NCBI RefSeq assembly: GCF_000173075.1
Contig: NZ_ABVL01000003.1
Span: forward strand, 62,001 to 126,000
DNA from: Chthoniobacter flavus Ellin428
GTDB taxonomy: Bacteria > Verrucomicrobiota > Verrucomicrobiia > Chthoniobacterales > Chthoniobacteraceae
Direction: 5' to 3'
DNA: 64,000 nt
The stretch's first letter is position 1, and each line of letters starts with the position of its first letter. Shown here piece after piece: positions 51,796 to 62,637 of the stretch. Both the position numbers and the translations under genes were made by a program. The notes under the pieces are model-generated. The model worked only from the letters and a program-made list of their open reading frames with translations, had not been told where the DNA came from and ran no database searches.

Positions 51796-52330
51796 GGGAA
51801 AGAGGGGCAGGAGCAGTAACCGATCTTCGGCCAGCGCGCCAACGGCTTTTCGCGTACGCAAGTCAATCCTCCGCGCCGGAGCTTCCTTAGCAGAAGGGCG
51901 TGGGCGGCCTTCTGGATCTCCGTCGTAATCTTGATCCTTGATCTTAATCCTTAATCCCTGGCTGGCTGGTGAGGATTAAGGATCAACGATCAAAGATTAA
52001 GGATTAAGGAGCAAGTAAGGCGCTTCGCGCGACCGCGCTCGCCGGGAAGCGCATTCCCCAACCCTGCGGAGCGGACACACAAGCGGCCCCGCGGCGGCCT
52101 ATCAACTACCGACTATCAACGATCAACTTCCCAATCCCGCATCGGGGCGTTGGCTGAACCGCAACGGCCCTACCGCCATTCACCGGCGATCCGCCGATTC
52201 CTTTTTCACCCAGCTGTGTCCCATGCGCGGTTTCCAAAATCACCTCCCGGTTCTCTCAGGCATGCGTCTCGCTGGTTGCAGACTTGATAATCCGCCGATT
52301 TGCGGGATAATACAGGCCCTGCCCGGTTGT
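51796..52330. other. Divergent intergenic region with a self-complementary tract
   Basis: No gene is seen in 535 bases. At 51931-52015 CTTGATCCTTGATCTTAATC and following TTAATCC are mirrored by GGATTAAGGATCAACGATC and AAGATTAAGGATTAAGG, forming an imperfect hairpin. Further along, ATCAACTACCGACTATC and ACGATCAAC repeat near 52100. The remainder should hold promoters for the lipoprotein and the L,D-transpeptidase gene. Confidence 0.5.
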
Positions 52331-53881
52331 ATGGTGTCCGCACAGTCAACGCAGCCTACGCGAATCGTCCGGCGTCTTTGGGGAACAACAAAGACGGTAG
52401 CCGCGCTTTGTACGCTGGCCGTCCTGGCGACTACCGCCTTCGCCGCGGAAAAGGAGACGACGACTCTGTCGGACACAGCGGATTTTAAGTCCGCTGGGGC
52501 GGAAGAGCCGAGCTTGGTGCGCATCGCGCTGACCAATCCAGACGCCACTCCGAAAGACCGCGCGACAGCACAATTACAAGTGCTCGGCCTGCTCGCCCCC
52601 AATGATTTCCTCCGCGCCATCGCCTCTGGCAATCAGCCGCTGGTGCGCCTCTTCCTCACCGCAGGCGCCGATGTCGACGCCCGGGGCGACGACCGCCGCA
52701 CACCGCTGATCGCTGCGGCGCTGGGGCGCAACTGGGACCTCGTCGCTCGCCTGCTCAAGGCCGGCGCCAACCCACGTCTCGCCGACGAACACGGTCTCAC
52801 CCCGCTCATGGCCGCGGCCATCGGCGGGAATGTGCCCACGATCCATCGCCTGCTCGCCGCCGGCGCGCCGCTCAATGCCATGGACAGCAAGGGCCGGCTG
52901 GCCCTCGGTTACGCCGTGGCGCTCCGCCAATCCGCCGCCGTGGCCGCGCTGCTCGACTTGCAGAAGACCCTCCCGCCCGCGGCGAAAGGCGGGGACGATC
53001 TCGCCGCCGCCGCGCTGGAAAGCGGCGATCGCGATCTCCTCGAAGACATCCTGCGCCGGCTGCCGGACGGGCTCACCTGGATCCCCGCCGCGCGCGCGGA
53101 ATTCACCAAGGCCCTCGCCCTCCGCGACACCATCATGGCGCCGCTGCTCATGGAAAAATTCGCCGGCCCGCCCGCCGAGTCCGCGAATTCCCAGCCGCTC
53201 CTCGCCTACGCTGTCGCGCGGCACAATCTCGACCAGGTCCGCACGCTTCTCTTCCTCGGCGCCGATCCGAACACCGTCGTCGATCGCCCCACCGATACCG
53301 CCTTCCGCGGATGGGTGGGCACCAGCTTCATGCGCTACTATCTCGACAACACGCCGGGCCTCACCGTGCTGATGCTCGCCGCCGGCCTGAAGCAGACCGA
53401 CATGGTGAAGCTGCTCCTCGAGAATGGCGCGAATCGCAACCTCTCCACGAAAGGCAAGTCGAGCTTCCTCGCCCTTTACTTCGCTGCGTGGGCGAACAGC
53501 CCCGAGACCATTCAGGTGCTTCTCGGCCAGGCGCCGAGCAAGCGCGATTACTACATCGAAGTCTCCCTCGACGAGCAGCGTGTCTGTTACTACCGCAACG
53601 GCCAGCTCGTCCTCTCCTCGGAAATTTCCACCGGTCGCGACGGCTACCCGACGAAGCCCGGCGAGTACGTCATCACCGACAAACATCTCGAGCACCACTC
53701 CACGCTCTACCACAACGCCAGCATGCCGTATTTCATGCGGCTGAGCTGCCAGGCCTTCGGCCTGCACGAGGGCTACGTCACCGGCCGCCCGGAATCGCAC
53801 GGCTGCATCCGCCTCCCCGGCGAAGTCGCCCGCCGCCTCTTCAAGGAAGCGCCCATCGGGACCTGGGTGAGCGTCAAGTAA
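52331..53881 (+). CDS. Ankyrin-repeat L,D-transpeptidase (YkuD domain)
   Basis: About 516 residues from ATG 52331. The signal peptide is TVAALCTLAVLATTAFA. Residues 90-370 contain ankyrin repeats: VRLFLTAGADVDARGDDRRTPL, VARLLKAGANPRLADEHGLTPLM, IHRLLAAGAPLNAMDSKGR, VKLLLENGANRNLSTKG. The C-terminal YkuD domain has the catalytic motif SHGCIRLPG with nucleophile Cys, after GLHEGYVTGRP. The enzyme would form 3-3 crosslinks or attach proteins to peptidoglycan in the periplasm. Fusion of ankyrin repeats to YkuD suggests a protein partner at the wall. Three starts exist upstream; this one gives a proper signal peptide. Confidence 0.85.
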   Translation: MVSAQSTQPTRIVRRLWGTTKTVAALCTLAVLATTAFAAEKETTTLSDTADFKSAGAEEPSLVRIALTNPDATPKDRATAQLQVLGLLAPNDFLRAIASGNQPLVRLFLTAGADVDARGDDRRTPLIAAALGRNWDLVARLLKAGANPRLADEHGLTPLMAAAIGGNVPTIHRLLAAGAPLNAMDSKGRLALGYAVALRQSAAVAALLDLQKTLPPAAKGGDDLAAAALESGDRDLLEDILRRLPDGLTWIPAARAEFTKALALRDTIMAPLLMEKFAGPPAESANSQPLLAYAVARHNLDQVRTLLFLGADPNTVVDRPTDTAFRGWVGTSFMRYYLDNTPGLTVLMLAAGLKQTDMVKLLLENGANRNLSTKGKSSFLALYFAAWANSPETIQVLLGQAPSKRDYYIEVSLDEQRVCYYRNGQLVLSSEISTGRDGYPTKPGEYVITDKHLEHHSTLYHNASMPYFMRLSCQAFGLHEGYVTGRPESHGCIRLPGEVARRLFKEAPIGTWVSVK

Positions 53882-53962: not shown

Positions 53963-54682
53963 TTACTTGCTCCGCCCAAACAAGCTCCACCCCGTCCCCT
54001 TCTCCGCCTTGTTCTGCTGCACTTTCAGTTGCCCGAGCAGCGACTGCAGGCCGAGATACACCTTGTGCCACGCGCCTTCCACTGCCGGGATCGCATCTGG
54101 TCCATCGGCCAGATAGCGCAGACTCGGCGCCTGGGCGAAGAGATGATGCACCTCTTCCTTCTTTGGTCCGCCTTTTTCCGTCGAGGCAATGATCGCCTCG
54201 AGACCCTGCGCAATCACGCTCTTGAGCTCCAGGAATTGCATCTCGTCTTCCCGCGCGAATTTTTTGTCCCGCGCCAGGTTCACGTAGTGGTTAAACTGCT
54301 TCCAGCACTCGATGTAATTCTCGAGGTGCAGGATGAATTCTTCAATGTTCTTGTAATGCATGGCGGGCGGCGTGTGCGTGTGGGGGAGCTGCATCGTGAC
54401 GGGTTGGAGGAAGATCAGCGCTCCGCCGCGCAGCTCACGGGCGGTAATGCTCAGGCCGCTGAAATCCAGGTGCAGGTCGGAGAGCGCCAGTTGCGCTTCC
54501 TCCGCCTTGCGGAAGATTTTCAGCACTTCCTCGCCGATCTCCAGGATCTTGTTTTCCGAAAAGGTCGAGGGCAGCGTCGAGGCCACGAGCCCGCCCTCGC
54601 GGTGAATGGTGAAACAGCCGCTGGGCAGCCGCTCCGGGCTCAACGCTTTGTGCTGGCGGGAGAAAGGTTTTAGGAGGCCCAT
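53963..54682 (-). CDS. Roadblock/LC7-like protein with helical C-terminal domain
   Basis: 239 residues. Residues 15-100 read like a roadblock/LC7 or profilin-type domain: LPSGCFTIHREGGLVASTLPSTF, ILEIGEEVLKIFRKAEEAQL, LSITARELRGGALIFLQP. The second half is helical (HYKNIEEFILHLENYIECWKQFNHYV; MQFLELKSVIAQGLEAI), ending in LKVQQNKAEKGTGWSLFG. No exact family is recognised, so the domain is assigned by pattern. It overlaps the upstream response regulator by 13 bases and lies opposite the MglA/MglB genes. It probably helps regulate the GTPase or links it to the regulator. Confidence 0.65.
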   Translation of the reverse strand: MGLLKPFSRQHKALSPERLPSGCFTIHREGGLVASTLPSTFSENKILEIGEEVLKIFRKAEEAQLALSDLHLDFSGLSITARELRGGALIFLQPVTMQLPHTHTPPAMHYKNIEEFILHLENYIECWKQFNHYVNLARDKKFAREDEMQFLELKSVIAQGLEAIIASTEKGGPKKEEVHHLFAQAPSLRYLADGPDAIPAVEGAWHKVYLGLQSLLGQLKVQQNKAEKGTGWSLFGRSK

Positions 54683-55722
54683 TTCGCTTCGATCTGTTTC
54701 ATGGTTTCTCGAATATGCGGCAGGCTGGCCGAGCGCGTAAAGCCTATGCCGAGGTCCTGCTCATCACTGGAAAGAATACCCACGTGCCGCTGCGGCCCCA
54801 GCGCCTCGATCTGCTCGAGCTGCCCGGCCTCCAGCTTGTCGCCCAGCGTGCGCAACGCCCGCGTCGTCTCGTGAATCCACGCCGCCATCCGGTCCGGATT
54901 CTCCGCCGCCCAATGCTCGAACGTCGTCTTGTCGCTGCCTTCCACGGCGATGACGAATTGCACGCCCTTGTATTTCGAAAACGAGGCCAGCGAATTCGTA
55001 TCCTCGCCCGTCACCAAATCCGTCGGGCTCGTCTCATCGATCGTCTGCGCCGTTTCCATCAGCAGGTTTTCGTAAGACGAGAAAATCGTCCGCGGCCGCG
55101 GCGTATCGTTCGGCAGAATCTCAAAGCTGCCCGCCTTCCAACGCAGCATCTCGAGAAATGCATCCTTGCCCAGGAAATCGCCCATCGCCGCATCGATGAT
55201 TTCCCCGCGCTGGATCCAGATGCGCCCTTCGCCCGTCGCACTCGCGATTTTCAGAATTGCCGAGCTCTGCGTGAGACACTCGAGCTGCACGATATCCACC
55301 AGCGTCTTGCTCTGCACCCCGCGGAAGCCGCCCACATCTTCCTTCTCCAGCATCGACTCGATGCAATCGACAAAGTTGATGATCTCCTTCCCGGTCTTCG
55401 GCTTCTCGAGATAGAGGTCGATCCCCATGGCGTAAGCGCGGGCGCGGAATTGTTCATCCTCCGCCGCGGTCATCACCACCACGCGCAAGGTGGGGAATTT
55501 GCGCCGCACGATCGCGAGCACCTGGAAGCCATCCATCGTCGGCATGCGCAGGTCGACGAGGAGGAGATTGAACGGTTCGCTCTCGAGCAACGCGATTGCG
55601 CGGGCTCCGGCGTCGGCCGTGTGGATTTCCGGCTGACTGGGCAGCCGGGCGAGGATCTCCTGGTAAATCTCCAGGATGTCGTGCTCGTCATCGAGAATGA
55701 GAATTTTTTGCCGGGCGGGCAT
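54670..55722 (-). CDS. Response regulator with DUF4388 (PatA-like) domain
   Basis: 350 residues. The receiver domain is complete: ILILDDEHD acidic pocket, phosphoacceptor Asp in LLLVDLRMPTMDGF, Thr in VVMTAAED, and Lys in LYLEKP. Residues 130-225 match the DUF4388/PatA-type output: VQSKTLVDIVQLECLTQSSAILKI, GRIWIQRGEIIDA, KDAFLEMLRWKAGSFEILP. The C-terminal 100 residues (YKGVQFVIAVEGSDK onward) look like a further roadblock-like domain. DUF4388 is common in regulators of gliding, polarity and sporulation. It precedes the roadblock-like gene and is divergent from the MglA cluster. Confidence 0.82.
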   Translation of the reverse strand: MPARQKILILDDEHDILEIYQEILARLPSQPEIHTADAGARAIALLESEPFNLLLVDLRMPTMDGFQVLAIVRRKFPTLRVVVMTAAEDEQFRARAYAMGIDLYLEKPKTGKEIINFVDCIESMLEKEDVGGFRGVQSKTLVDIVQLECLTQSSAILKIASATGEGRIWIQRGEIIDAAMGDFLGKDAFLEMLRWKAGSFEILPNDTPRPRTIFSSYENLLMETAQTIDETSPTDLVTGEDTNSLASFSKYKGVQFVIAVEGSDKTTFEHWAAENPDRMAAWIHETTRALRTLGDKLEAGQLEQIEALGPQRHVGILSSDEQDLGIGFTRSASLPHIRETMKQIEAKWAS

Positions 55723-55908
55723 AGGTGGGTGGGAAAGTATTATTTACGTAACTTAACGAGGTACGAGGCGGTCAAGACCGCGAATTTCGTCTCGGATTCT
55801 CAGCACGTCACGCGCCAAGTTTCAGAGAGAACAAAAGATTTTTTCAGACGTTTGACTACATGGCATCACTGTTGCTAGCCAATAGCGTCGCCCATCCCAG
55901 ACGGTCAC

Positions 55909-57948
55909 ATGCTTTCGATCTTCAAAAAAATATTCGGTAAAGCCGAGCCCAAAGCCGTTGCGCCCGTGCGTGCCGTGGCCGCGACGGCCAAGGCCGTGCC
56001 CGCAGCGCCGCACACCCCGATGCCCACCATCGAGGTTGCCCACCTCTCGCTCGCCTCCATCATCGAACGGTTCCCCGACGAACTAAGAACGCTCGTGGTC
56101 AGCCAGCCGGATGCCACCGCCACGGTCGCCCTGCCGATGCCGACCATCCTCAAGCAACTGCCCACCGGCAGTGTGAAGATGTCGCTCGCCAGCCTTCATC
56201 GCCAGGCCCACGGCTGCATCGCCCCGCTCCCGGCCGGCGACAAGCGGACCGTCGACATCCCGCTCTCGGAGATTTTCCGCCACGTGAAGCCGGAGGCCCT
56301 GCGCCGCCGCAACGACCAGCGTTATATAGATATGCCCGAAGACGCGTTCAGCCTCTTCGGCGATTCCAACAATCCCTACGCGATCGCCCCCGAGCCCGAG
56401 CCCGCCTACGAAGAGCAGGCTCAGGAAGAAGTGCTCGACATCGACGAACCCGTCGAAGAAGCGCCCGCCGGAGGCCAGCGCGTCGTCCCGATGGATGACG
56501 GCCTGCGCGCGCAGTTCCATAATAATGGTGCTGCCCCGGAAGCCGAGGCCGAAGAGCAGGTCCAGCAGCCGCAAATCCCGCGGGCCATCGCCCCGCCATC
56601 CGAATTCAAGATCGCCGCACCCCAGGCCGCTCCAGCGCAACCTCCCCGTTCCACCGCCCAGCCACCGCGTTCGACGACCCAGGCGCCTCGCTCCGGGGCC
56701 CAACCGCCGCGCTCCGGCGTGGCCCAACCCCCGCGCTCGGGCGCTCAACCGCCCCGCTCCGGCGTGCAGCGCGCCGCTGCCGCTGCTGCCCCGGTCGCCA
56801 AACCCACTGGCCCGACTTTTTCCATCGCCCTCGCTTCGATCTGCGGCGCATGGCCCGACGCCATCAAGGCGGAAATCTCCGCGCTCGACCCGGCCACCAC
56901 CGTCGCCCTGCCGGAAAATGAACTCTCCGCCGGCCTCGCCAAAGGCCGCGTCAGCTTCGCCTGGAAGCAGATCCACGCCTGGCTCACGCCCGACGCTCCC
57001 GCGACCGCTGCCGCCGGCGACACCGCCCTGCAGCTCCCGCTGAAGGTCCTCGCCCCTCTCTTCCTCGCCAATAAAAAGCCCTCTGCGGAACGCAAGACGT
57101 TCCGGATGGACGAGACCATCCCGACCCTCTTCGCCGATGCCCGGCCGCCGCAGGAAAAACCCGCGCCGCCGCCACCGCCGGCACCCGAACCGGTCGTCGA
57201 AGAAATCCCCGCACCCGTCGTCGAAGAAGCGCCCGCCGCTCCTGCGATGGAAGCCGCGCCCGCCCCGGTCGAAGAACCCGCCCCGGCTGCTCCCGCGGAA
57301 CCCATTCCGGCTCCCGCTCTCGAGCAACCCGCCGCGCCCGTCGAAGCCGAAAAAGCGCCCGAACCCGCTCCTGCTGCCGAGGCGGCTCCCGCCCCCGCCG
57401 CGGAACCGATCCCCACACCGGCCCTCGCCGCTCCCGCCGCACTGGCCGCCGCCGTCGAGGCGCCCACCGCTGCCGCTCCGGTCCTCGAGACTCCTGCTGC
57501 GGTTGTTCCCGCTACCGTCGAAGCACCTGCTGCCGCCGCTCCGGCAAAAGCCGCCCCGCAAACCGTCGGCGAAATCTTCGGCAACCCGAAAAAGCAAAGC
57601 TGGACCCCCGCCGAGCTCGTCGCCGGCCTCGTCAAGCTCCCCGGTGTCGCCGGTGCCATCGTGGCCCTGCAGGAAGGCCTGCCGGTTGCCGCTTCCCTCC
57701 CGGAAGGCGTCAAGAGCGACGTCGTCGCCGCCTTCCTTCCCCAGATTTTTGCGCGTCTGAACCTATATGCGGGCGAAATGAAACTCGGCGATGTGGACGA
57801 TCTCCTGTTCACCACGCATGGTGCCCACTGCCAGATCTACCGCCTCGGCTACATCTACTTTGCCGTCCTCGGCAAAGCCGGCGAGGCCCTGCCCTGGCAC
57901 GAGCTGCACCTCATCACCGAGGAACTCGCGCGCCACACGCACAAATAA
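55909..57948 (+). CDS. Large adaptor with two copies of an unnamed domain and a C-terminal roadblock domain
   Basis: 679 residues. After MLSIFKKIFGKAEPK, a domain at about 40-150 (LASIIERFPDELRTL; TATVALPMPTILKQLPTGSV; TVDIPLSEIFRHV) is repeated at about 304-412 (LASICGAWPDAIKAE; TTVALPENELSAGLAKGRV; ALQLPLKVLAPLFLA). Between them lie an acidic stretch and tandem QPPRSGA/AQPPRST repeats (245-287). A long Pro/Ala/Glu linker (414-553) leads to a roadblock/LC7 domain (LVKLPGVAGAIVALQEGLPVAA onward, 555-675). No enzyme motif is present. It is a probable scaffold for the MglA GTPase encoded 21 bases downstream. The repeated domain is not one I can name. Confidence 0.75.
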   Translation: MLSIFKKIFGKAEPKAVAPVRAVAATAKAVPAAPHTPMPTIEVAHLSLASIIERFPDELRTLVVSQPDATATVALPMPTILKQLPTGSVKMSLASLHRQAHGCIAPLPAGDKRTVDIPLSEIFRHVKPEALRRRNDQRYIDMPEDAFSLFGDSNNPYAIAPEPEPAYEEQAQEEVLDIDEPVEEAPAGGQRVVPMDDGLRAQFHNNGAAPEAEAEEQVQQPQIPRAIAPPSEFKIAAPQAAPAQPPRSTAQPPRSTTQAPRSGAQPPRSGVAQPPRSGAQPPRSGVQRAAAAAAPVAKPTGPTFSIALASICGAWPDAIKAEISALDPATTVALPENELSAGLAKGRVSFAWKQIHAWLTPDAPATAAAGDTALQLPLKVLAPLFLANKKPSAERKTFRMDETIPTLFADARPPQEKPAPPPPPAPEPVVEEIPAPVVEEAPAAPAMEAAPAPVEEPAPAAPAEPIPAPALEQPAAPVEAEKAPEPAPAAEAAPAPAAEPIPTPALAAPAALAAAVEAPTAAAPVLETPAAVVPATVEAPAAAAPAKAAPQTVGEIFGNPKKQSWTPAELVAGLVKLPGVAGAIVALQEGLPVAASLPEGVKSDVVAAFLPQIFARLNLYAGEMKLGDVDDLLFTTHGAHCQIYRLGYIYFAVLGKAGEALPWHELHLITEELARHTHK

Positions 57949-57969
57949 CTACCCAGCCCAGAGACACAC

Positions 57970-58581
57970 ATGGCCATTATCAACCAAGCGACCAAGGAGC
58001 TTCAGGTAAAGATCGTCTACTACGGTCCTGCCAAGAGCGGCAAGACGACCAACCTCGAGCAGGTGCACTCCAACGTGCAGGTCCCCAATGCCGCCTCCAA
58101 GGGCAAAATGACTTCCCTTGCCACCTCCAGCGATCGCACCCTTTTCTTCGACTTCTTCCCCCTCGAAGCCGTCGCCATCAAAGGCTTCAAGACGAAATTC
58201 GCCCTCTTCACCGTCCCCGGTCAGGTCATCTACAACGCCACCCGCCAGATCGTCCTCCGGGGCGTCGACGGGATCGTCTTTGTGGCCGACTCCCAGTACG
58301 ATAAGATGGAGGAGAACATCGAAACCTTCAAACACCTCGAGGAAAACCTCAAGACCCTCAACCTCAACCTGAACGATATTCCCTACGTCATGCAGTACAA
58401 CAAGCGGGACCTTCCCGAAGTTGCGCCTGTGGAATATCTCGATTTCGTTCTAAATAATCGCGAGATTCAGGTTCCATCCTTCGAGGCCGCAGCCTCCAAA
58501 TGTGACGGCGTCTTTGAAACGCTGAACATGATCACCCGGATGTTGCTTCACAAATTCCTCAACGACGGCGTGCGGAAATAA
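57970..58581 (+). CDS. mglA: MglA-like small GTPase
   Basis: 203 residues. The P-loop is YYGPAKSGKTTNLEQV, the switch region is FDFFPLEAVAIKGFKTKF with TVPGQVIYNATRQIVLRG, then GVDGIVFVADSQYDK and NKRDLP for guanine specificity. This is the MglA family of Ras-like GTPases, which sets cell polarity and gliding or pilus direction in Myxococcus. TVPGQ and the switch pattern fit MglA rather than eukaryotic Ras. It lies in an operon with the large roadblock adaptor and the MglB-like gene. The frame is complete. Confidence 0.92.
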   Translation: MAIINQATKELQVKIVYYGPAKSGKTTNLEQVHSNVQVPNAASKGKMTSLATSSDRTLFFDFFPLEAVAIKGFKTKFALFTVPGQVIYNATRQIVLRGVDGIVFVADSQYDKMEENIETFKHLEENLKTLNLNLNDIPYVMQYNKRDLPEVAPVEYLDFVLNNREIQVPSFEAAASKCDGVFETLNMITRMLLHKFLNDGVRK

Positions 58582-58630
58582 TTATTATTATTCATTATTA
58601 GTCCCGCACTTATTTCGCACTCATATTAAT

Positions 58631-59113
58631 ATGGGCCAATTCCCACAGCTCAATCAGGAAGATGTCGATTTCATTAACGGCGTGATGCGTGATTTACTCT
58701 CCAAGAGTGAAGCACACGTCGCACTGCTCGTGGAGAAGGCCGGTTACCTCATCCACCAGTGTGGCAACCCGGATTCCATCGATACCACCACTTTCGCCAC
58801 CCTCGGCTCGAACGCTTACAACGCCGTGCAATTCATGGCCCAGCTCGTGAATGAGAACAACTTCACCAGCATGTACCAGCAGGGCGAAAATTTCAGCACC
58901 CTCATGGTCAACGTCGACGAGAACAGCCTCCTCGTCATCGTCTTCCCCACCCACCTCACCGTGGGTTCCATGAAGTACTACGCCAACCCGGCCGCGCGCA
59001 CTATCTCGGACCGCATCGATTTCGCCACCAAACGCGGCGGCCCCGGCCTCGATCTCAGCGACCTCGACCCCACCGACGTTCAGACGCTTTTCCAGAAAAA
59101 GGAATCGCCGTAA
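58631..59113 (+). CDS. mglB: MglB-like roadblock/LC7 protein
   Basis: 160 residues, the usual length for a GTPase-activating roadblock protein. It has DFINGVMRDLLSKSEAHVALLVEKAGYLIHQ, ATLGSNAYNAVQFMAQLVNE, FSTLMVNVDENSLLVIVFP and HLTVGSMKYYANPAARTISD. MglB stimulates GTP hydrolysis by MglA and marks one cell pole in Myxococcus. It follows mglA by 49 bases on the same strand. The short extension ending DVQTLFQKKESP is disordered. Confidence 0.88.
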   Translation: MGQFPQLNQEDVDFINGVMRDLLSKSEAHVALLVEKAGYLIHQCGNPDSIDTTTFATLGSNAYNAVQFMAQLVNENNFTSMYQQGENFSTLMVNVDENSLLVIVFPTHLTVGSMKYYANPAARTISDRIDFATKRGGPGLDLSDLDPTDVQTLFQKKESP

Positions 59114-59791: not shown

Positions 59792-60100
59792 TCAGCCAGG
59801 GTCCAAAATACCGAGGCGTCGACGGATTTCGTCGGGATTCTTCCTCAGATCGACCACCGCTGCGACGACGAGTCGAGACCCGTGTATACGATAGAAGATG
59901 CCGTGGTCGAATCTCAGAAGCAGGAGTCGGCGGAATTCGCCGGCATAGAGTGGAGCCGAAGCAGGAAACCGGGCAAGGCGCTGTAGGCCGCTGAGCACGG
60001 CTTCGTCGAACTTCGCGCCGAGGCCGGGATTCAGATTTTCATAGTGGACCCACGCGGTCCACAAGTCACTTTCCGCGCCGGCGAGAATGGTTACTTCCAC
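59792..60100 (-). CDS. RelE/ParE-superfamily toxin
   Basis: 102 residues with the RelE/ParE plan: VTILAGAESDLWTAWVHYENLNPGLG, FDEAVLSGLQRLARFPASAP, RRLLLLRFDHGIFYRI, LVVAAVVDLRKNPDEIRRRL. ParE-type members act on gyrase, RelE-type on ribosome-bound mRNA; which applies is unclear. It overlaps the upstream antitoxin gene by 10 bases, as expected for a toxin-antitoxin operon. The pair lies between two copies of a duplicated gene. Confidence 0.85.
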   Translation of the reverse strand: MEVTILAGAESDLWTAWVHYENLNPGLGAKFDEAVLSGLQRLARFPASAPLYAGEFRRLLLLRFDHGIFYRIHGSRLVVAAVVDLRKNPDEIRRRLGILDPG

Positions 60101-61851: not shown

Positions 61852-62637
61852 CTACTCCGCCGCTTTCGATACCACCTTCGACCCCGCTTCCCCGGGCGCT
61901 GGCGTGAGGCGTTCGTCGGGGAAGACCACTTTCACGTGGAACTCGTGGCCGTCGCTGAACGAGGCGGTCAGCCATTTCCCCACGAAGATCTGCACTTGCT
62001 GGCGGGCGATCTCTTTGACCATGGGGATGTGTTCCACGGCGCGCCGGTGCAGGGCGGGGGTGAGAGTGGCCAGGAGGCGGTTGCGGACGGCTTTGTCGTC
62101 CTGCCAGACATGCCCTTCGATCGTATAGAAGGTGAGCTTGGATATGTCGGATGCCGGAGTGCTGGGTACGAGCACCGGCGGGTAGACGGTGACGGCGCCG
62201 TCCTGCTGCTGGAATTCCCACGGGCCGTCGAAGTCGAGGTAGTAGCCGTATTCCACCGGGACATCGGCCTGGACGACGATGCTGGGCAGCGGGATGAGGC
62301 CCCAAGCGAGACTGTTGCTCTCCTTGCGGCGGAAGGTCTCGTGTTCCTGCAGGGTGGCCACTTGCAAACGGCGCGTGCCGGTGAGGGTGGCGGCGCTGCT
62401 GAGGAATTCCTCCCGCACATTGCGCTCGCGGAAGGCGTGGGCGACGGTGGCAGCCTGGTGGCCGATCTCTTTGACCATGGCAGTCCCTTTGTCGAGGGCT
62501 GCGAGCGGCAGGGTGGCGATGCTTTGCCAGGCCCAGACGCCGGCGCCGATGGCGGCCAGCCCGAGACAGAGGATCACGCGAGGCCAGGCGTGGCGCGCGC
62601 TGGACGGCGAGATGGAGGTATCGGGCGACAGGGACAT
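61852..62637 (-). CDS. Single-pass membrane protein of unknown function
   Basis: About 261 residues from ATG 62637 (MSLSPDTSIS). One N-terminal helix (ILCLGLAAIGAGVWAW) is followed by an extracytoplasmic domain: GTAMVKEIGHQAATVAHAF, RRLQVATLQEHETFRRKESN, VVQADVPVEYGYYLDFDGPW, ISKLTFYTIEGHVW, EFHVKVVFPDE. The tryptic pattern of a strand pair (QVATLQEHE; VPVEYGYYLDF) resembles DUF4230-type domains, but the assignment is weak. It is divergent from rnc, with about 110 bases between their starts. No function is assigned. Confidence 0.6.
   Translation of the reverse strand: MSLSPDTSISPSSARHAWPRVILCLGLAAIGAGVWAWQSIATLPLAALDKGTAMVKEIGHQAATVAHAFRERNVREEFLSSAATLTGTRRLQVATLQEHETFRRKESNSLAWGLIPLPSIVVQADVPVEYGYYLDFDGPWEFQQQDGAVTVYPPVLVPSTPASDISKLTFYTIEGHVWQDDKAVRNRLLATLTPALHRRAVEHIPMVKEIARQQVQIFVGKWLTASFSDGHEFHVKVVFPDERLTPAPGEAGSKVVSKAAE

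Follow-up and report, generated by a model that had tools for sequence, protein, structure and literature searches.

Detailed knowledge of the links between MglA-type GTPases, their input signals and the pilus motors comes mainly from Myxococcus, in which the parts are scattered in the genome. In M. xanthus, MglA-GTP disrupts the complex formed by RomR, MglC and MglB (PMC10329633), and MglA brings PilB to the pole via SgmX (PMC11580455). In Synechocystis, PATAN regulators bind the PilB motor through their PATAN domain (PMC10519157, PMC12288463). A survey of MglA proteins (Wuichet and Sogaard-Andersen 2014, PMC4316618) defined Group 1 by an Arg adjoining the conserved Thr of G2 together with the G3 motif TVPGQ, listed only Group 5 MglA for the Verrucomicrobia and noted, citing Makarova 2006, that PATAN genes are "occasionally" found near some Group 1 and Group 5 mglA genes. 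Here we describe a five-gene unit of Chthoniobacter flavus Ellin428, situated in a 64,000-nucleotide (nt) stretch (positions 62,001 to 126,000 of contig NZ_ABVL01000003.1, referred to below as the window) of a genome that comprises 7,848,700 bases on 62 contigs. This unit is probably an MglA polarity module which is gated by a phosphorelay and has the motors of type IV pili as its target.

The initial annotation of this DNA had described five genes in two divergent blocks, encoding a response regulator with a DUF4388 output, a roadblock-like protein overlapping it, a 679-residue roadblock adaptor, an MglA-type GTPase and an MglB-like roadblock protein, with at least three roadblock-type domains, an intact receiver Asp and a genetic linkage of this input to the scaffold. 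All of these elements were recovered in our analysis: the five open reading frames (ORFs) have the coordinates and strands given in Table 1, three roadblock-type domains are supported and a fourth is probable, and the gene order is kept across relatives. Genome-wide, there are only two Pfam matches to Robl_LC7, both within the five-gene locus, and three to DUF4388, one of which is within it.

The MglA protein matched solved MglA structures over its entire length (Thermus thermophilus 3t12, 5.9e-60; M. xanthus, approx. 2e-59). Its motifs include the P-loop (G19-PAKSGKT), R56-T57, T81VPGQ85 and NKRD, and alignment to T. thermophilus MglA revealed that R56-T57 and T81VPGQ85 correspond to the Arg-Thr pair and the G3 motif of Group 1. 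The actinobacterial conservons (Group 2) include the histidine kinase CvnA and have Group 2 versions of the G2 and G3 motifs; the five genes described here encode no kinase, and the motifs of MglA are those of Group 1. The mglB gene, which starts 49 nt 3' of mglA, lies well within four genes of it, as in Group 1, and this coupling is kept in relatives. Its product is a roadblock protein (Robl_LC7, 40.2 bits in Pfam) whose best match is MglB (M. xanthus, 2.5e-14). It scored 50.5 of the 200 bits of NCBIfam model NF052242, under the equivalog cut-off, and is therefore, as judged by these profiles, a homologue of MglB and not an equivalog under that model. The identities of MglA and MglB are unambiguous, and the latter is presumed to be the GTPase-activating partner of the former.

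The response regulator exceeded the Pfam cut-offs for both Response_reg (1.9e-23) and DUF4388, the PATAN domain (9.8e-16). Both domains were present in all 55 homologues, in which residues D11, D12, D57 and K107 of the receiver are invariant. The protein is a PATAN response regulator with an intact phospho-acceptor (D57). The last approx. 110 residues form a third domain, for which weak Robl_LC7 matches were obtained in 4 of the 55 members (best 0.034), and the top solved-structure profile match, also weak, was an archaeal roadblock (0.022). This domain is probably a roadblock, which is the leading candidate on the basis of the profile matches. In profile-profile comparisons among the roadblock-type domains the positive control (the adaptor roadblock versus MglB) failed, and the null results were therefore discarded. 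At one locus (L164:3111-6345) the regulator and roadblock gene pair is duplicated in tandem.

The gene of the 239-residue protein shares 13 nt with the regulator gene. No Pfam family matched this protein, and the Robl_LC7 cut-off was not reached. Its AlphaFold2 model (mean predicted local distance difference test score, pLDDT, of 74) matched many roadblocks in Foldseek at probability 1.00; for the N-terminal half the best hits were roadblock proteins (7yh1, 1.8e-4), after which came Ragulator, dynein roadblock, MglB and MglC. In VIA-align the Z value was 9.5 against MglB and 9.1 against dynein roadblock. The N-terminal half of the protein is thus predicted to adopt the roadblock fold. The remainder forms a helical bundle, too common an arrangement to be informative on function. 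At 47 loci outside the Chthoniobacteraceae the two halves are encoded by two ORFs, and in 36 of these cases the stop and start codons overlap at ATGA. These counts point to two coupled genes, and not to an assembly error or a programmed frameshift, as the source of the apparent frameshift in the small gene outside the family. The occurrence of the roadblock and helical parts as a fusion in one lineage and as coupled genes in another suggests, from gene structure, that they function together. In L163:3337-4185 the helical partner domain is apparently repeated within one ORF (three matches).

The adaptor carries a C-terminal roadblock domain (Robl_LC7, 25.7 bits; cut-off 23), which was matched in 34 of 35 adaptor homologues, and two copies of a repeat domain. 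The core of the repeat was modeled with confidence (pLDDT >90 across most of residues 10-90 in AlphaFold2), and the domain gave no Pfam match, no PDB sequence match and no significant fold match in PDB or BFVD, which is an absence of match and not proof of a new fold. The repeat was detected in 30 of 388 genomes of the phylum, 29 of which also encode MglA; the latter is present in 42 of the 388 (hypergeometric p 1.6e-32, a value that overstates independence, since the genomes are related). The adaptor repeat domain is clearly an MglA companion.

In order to follow the gene order in relatives, we gathered 64 loci by searching named genomes with the 239-residue protein. The arrangement in which mglB, mglA and the adaptor gene diverge from the regulator and roadblock genes was complete in 47 of these 64 loci, a count that is conditional on one query protein of the set. 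The complete loci comprise 12 from the Chthoniobacteraceae and 35 from outside this family, the latter mostly labelled subdivision 3 or Limisphaerales. Many of the 17 incomplete loci stop at a contig edge; L119, in which the halves of the module lie approx. 40 kb apart, is a true exception, and L137 and L146 may be others. In a survey started from MglA, which is independent of the 239-residue query, the regulator and roadblock genes were adjacent in 12 of the 13 family loci with enough contig. Since both order and protein identity are conserved in many genomes, chance is excluded for the five-gene locus, and neither spurious ORFs nor a chance occurrence of two MglA copies can account for it. 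Within the Chthoniobacteraceae the five genes are compact and have no other conserved neighbors. At 35 loci outside the family, a conserved next gene, which by sequence resembles uppP (undecaprenyl-diphosphatase), is found approx. 0.7-0.8 kb past the start of the roadblock gene (e.g. L147:2877-3668).

The initial annotation had noted the lack of pilus genes nearby. This is true of the window, in which no pilT-like gene was found over 64 kb, and does not hold for the module in relatives, where its genes are contiguous with PilT or PilB-like ATPase genes. Of the 35 complete loci from outside the family, 14 have a PilT/PilU-family ATPase gene directly 3' of mglB and on its strand, and the three products tested scored above the NCBIfam cut-off. 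In seven loci of other families, the gene of a PilB-like ATPase lies 5-47 nt 5' of the run adaptor-mglA-mglB. A related arrangement was found in the Chthoniobacter genome itself: on contig C61 (L213:7171-12340), pilB is preceded by a gene for a TPR-MshEN protein and followed, 10 nt on, by that of a 1148-residue adaptor paralogue, which contains two copies of the adaptor repeat and, at its C-terminus, a homologue of the roadblock domain of the adaptor. This PilB is 76-89% identical to the PilB-like proteins of the seven loci.

Phylogenetic analysis placed the MglAs of the five-gene modules in one clade (100/99), and those from other families of the window's order, in which the pilB linkage is seen, in a separate clade (100/98). 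MglA of the five-gene type therefore belongs to a different lineage from MglA of the pilB-linked type, which could be explained by lateral transfer or by an old duplication with loss. A divergent MglA-like protein was also noted 3' of pilB in family member G011 (L048:9158-9790); its P-loop (GTPASGRAAT) is without the Lys, its G2 and G3 motifs are lost, and it is probably a pseudo-GTPase.

Because genes for PilB-like or PilT ATPases adjoin the module genes in relatives, we favor a role in pilus control, in which the five-gene unit probably sets the place or the time at which type IV pili are used by the cell. Several observations weigh against this. The pilus link is built on gene neighborhood, on paralogy and on the published behavior of PATAN and MglA proteins, and we infer the contacts between the proteins, as well as the activities, the polarity and the kinase, from the gene set, domains and neighborhoods observed. 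To the conditional count of complete loci given above can be added the finding that in the genus of the window the module has no pilus gene beside it. PilT was found in 373 of 388 genomes of the phylum and in all 40 of the family, and, being near-universal, its co-occurrence with the module is uninformative; 22 of the 40 family genomes have PilT without a close MglA, which indicates that the module is dispensable for pili. (Genome G000 gave 11 TIGR01420 matches, and the set of PilT-family ATPase matches is unusually large in this genome and in the family.)

The lack of an adjoining pilus gene in Chthoniobacter, and the many PilT genes that family members keep without MglA, speak for a switch of cell polarity or of the envelope without a pilus role, MglA placing other cargo such as division, cytoskeletal or secretion proteins, and the pilus genes being neighbors in some lineages only; the uppP-like neighbor of 35 loci outside the family, as against pilT in 14, points the same way. 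We nevertheless regard such a switch as unlikely, in view of the close spacing of the PilB-like genes and the adaptor gene in the seven loci of other families, the position of the adaptor paralogue beside pilB in the Chthoniobacter genome, and the fact that pili are the target of known MglA proteins and PATAN regulators. A further point against pilus control, namely that the module-linked PilB-like ATPases score just under the curated PilB cut-off and near their GspE score, below both cut-offs, could mean that the module acts on a type II secretion-like or another PilB/GspE-family machine and not on type IVa pili. This is quite improbable, since each of the five proteins tested scored higher with PilB than with GspE, and PilT/PilU, a retraction ATPase family, is linked to the module in 14 other loci. 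The stand-alone spatial switch proposed in the initial annotation, which would have no fixed output machine, agrees with the compact unit of the Chthoniobacteraceae and its lack of further conserved neighbors; the repeated linkage of adaptor-mglA-mglB to pilus motor genes in relatives, together with the pilB-adjoining paralogue of the genome itself, makes it the least probable of these alternatives, and we regard it as unsupported.

If the unit does control pili, it could operate as follows: (i) MglA would alternate between its GTP and GDP states, and MglB would serve as the activating protein; (ii) an unlinked kinase, which could be supplied by two clusters of CheW-domain genes present in the same genome (on contigs C19 and C56), would phosphorylate the regulator and so provide the input; (iii) the PATAN domain of the regulator may dock on PilB, as in Synechocystis; (iv) the third domain of the regulator and the roadblock-helical protein may stack on MglB or on the adaptor in a manner akin to RomR-MglC-MglB, this stack being the coupler; and (v) the adaptor may be the effector that carries the state of the GTPase to the extension or retraction motor, a role like that of SgmX. 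In this, the simplest reading, the unit would play the part that RomR/MglC/MglB/MglA play in Myxococcus, with different components. In a more elaborate version, which we put forward tentatively and consider somewhat doubtful, MglB, the adaptor, the regulator and the roadblock-helical protein would all contribute roadblock domains to a multilayer, Ragulator-like assembly, which passes both the nucleotide state of MglA and the phosphorelay signal to PilB/PilT via the unmatched fold of the adaptor.

Table 1. Genes of the five-gene unit and the domains of their products (window coordinates)
Feature	Size or residues	Position	Strand	Description
Roadblock-helical protein gene	239 aa	53963-54682	-	Start overlaps stop of regulator gene
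Roadblock domain	16-95	54398-54637	-	Predicted; AlphaFold2 and Foldseek/VIA-align
Helical bundle	approx. 110-230	53993-54355	-	AlphaFold2 model; outside Chthoniobacteraceae, encoded by its own ORF in most relatives
Response regulator gene	350 aa	54670-55722	-	Receiver, PATAN and C-terminal domain
Receiver domain	1-125	55348-55722	-	Pfam; phospho-acceptor D57, with D11, D12, K107
PATAN/DUF4388 domain	approx. 130-232	55027-55335	-	Pfam 9.8e-16; in 55/55 homologues
Regulator C-terminal domain	240-350	54673-55005	-	Probable roadblock; sequence profiles
Adaptor gene	679 aa	55909-57948	+	Two repeat domains and a C-terminal roadblock domain, with linkers rich in Pro/Ala
Adaptor repeat domain 1	43-151	56035-56361	+	AlphaFold2: four beta-alpha elements, without fold match
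Adaptor repeat domain 2	303-408	56815-57132	+	Homologous to repeat 1 (profile-profile E 1.4e-14)
Adaptor C-terminal roadblock domain	569-653	57613-57867	+	Robl_LC7 past cut-off
mglA	203 aa	57970-58581	+	Group 1-type MglA GTPase; PDB 3t12 match 5.9e-60
mglB	160 aa	58631-59113	+	Roadblock protein; Robl_LC7 40.2 bits; MglB structures 2.5e-14

The ORFs scanned near the module in the window are unrelated to it. The window also contains an ORF on the plus strand (52223-53881) whose product combines ankyrin repeats and an L,D-transpeptidase (YkuD) domain in one fusion protein, and one on the minus strand (59792-60100) encoding a ParE-type toxin (Pfam, 6.3e-6).

The analyzed locus thus brings together, in one five-gene unit kept in two verrucomicrobial groups, a receiver as the apparent input, a PATAN domain, roadblock layers, a GTPase and an adaptor, and its relatives point to the motor on which this unit may act. 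If pilus control is confirmed, the unit would offer a compact system for testing how a stack of roadblocks passes GTPase state and phosphorylation on to PilB/PilT. It would also add a previously undescribed domain, that of the adaptor, which co-occurs with MglA across the phylum. In the open-licence PubMed Central literature we found neither the fixed five-gene unit, nor the adaptor family and its repeat, the roadblock-helical protein or the tie between the adaptor and pilB/pilT.

Among the described systems, the cyanobacterial regulators PixG, PixE and PilG share the combination of receiver and PATAN domain with the regulator described here, in which, in contrast, the receiver comes first and a third domain follows, and whose gene lies beside mglA and mglB. 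The mglA-PATAN neighborhoods of Wuichet and Sogaard-Andersen (2014) share the nearness of the two genes; for Verrucomicrobia that survey listed Group 5 MglA only, whereas this locus has a Group 1 type MglA, a fixed order of five genes and two further partner families. In the MglA-SgmX-PilB pathway of M. xanthus a large non-enzymatic effector of MglA places PilB, a role that may be played here by the adaptor. However, SgmX is built of TPRs, and Pfam finds none in the adaptor, despite the presence of a TPR-MshEN protein 5' of pilB in the same genome. Ragulator and the Rag GTPases, in which roadblock layers surround small GTPases (discussed in PMC10329633), offer an analogy only, and the Rag GTPases have a roadblock domain of their own, whereas Pfam detects none in the MglA described here. 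The Myxococcus polarity module (MglA, MglB, MglC, RomR and RomX) resembles the five-gene unit in its MglA and MglB, its second roadblock protein (MglC) and its receiver protein (RomR). It differs in that the Chthoniobacter regulator has a PATAN domain and a probable roadblock in place of the C-terminal region of RomR, the second roadblock protein has a helical bundle as its other half, and an adaptor with undescribed repeats has been added.

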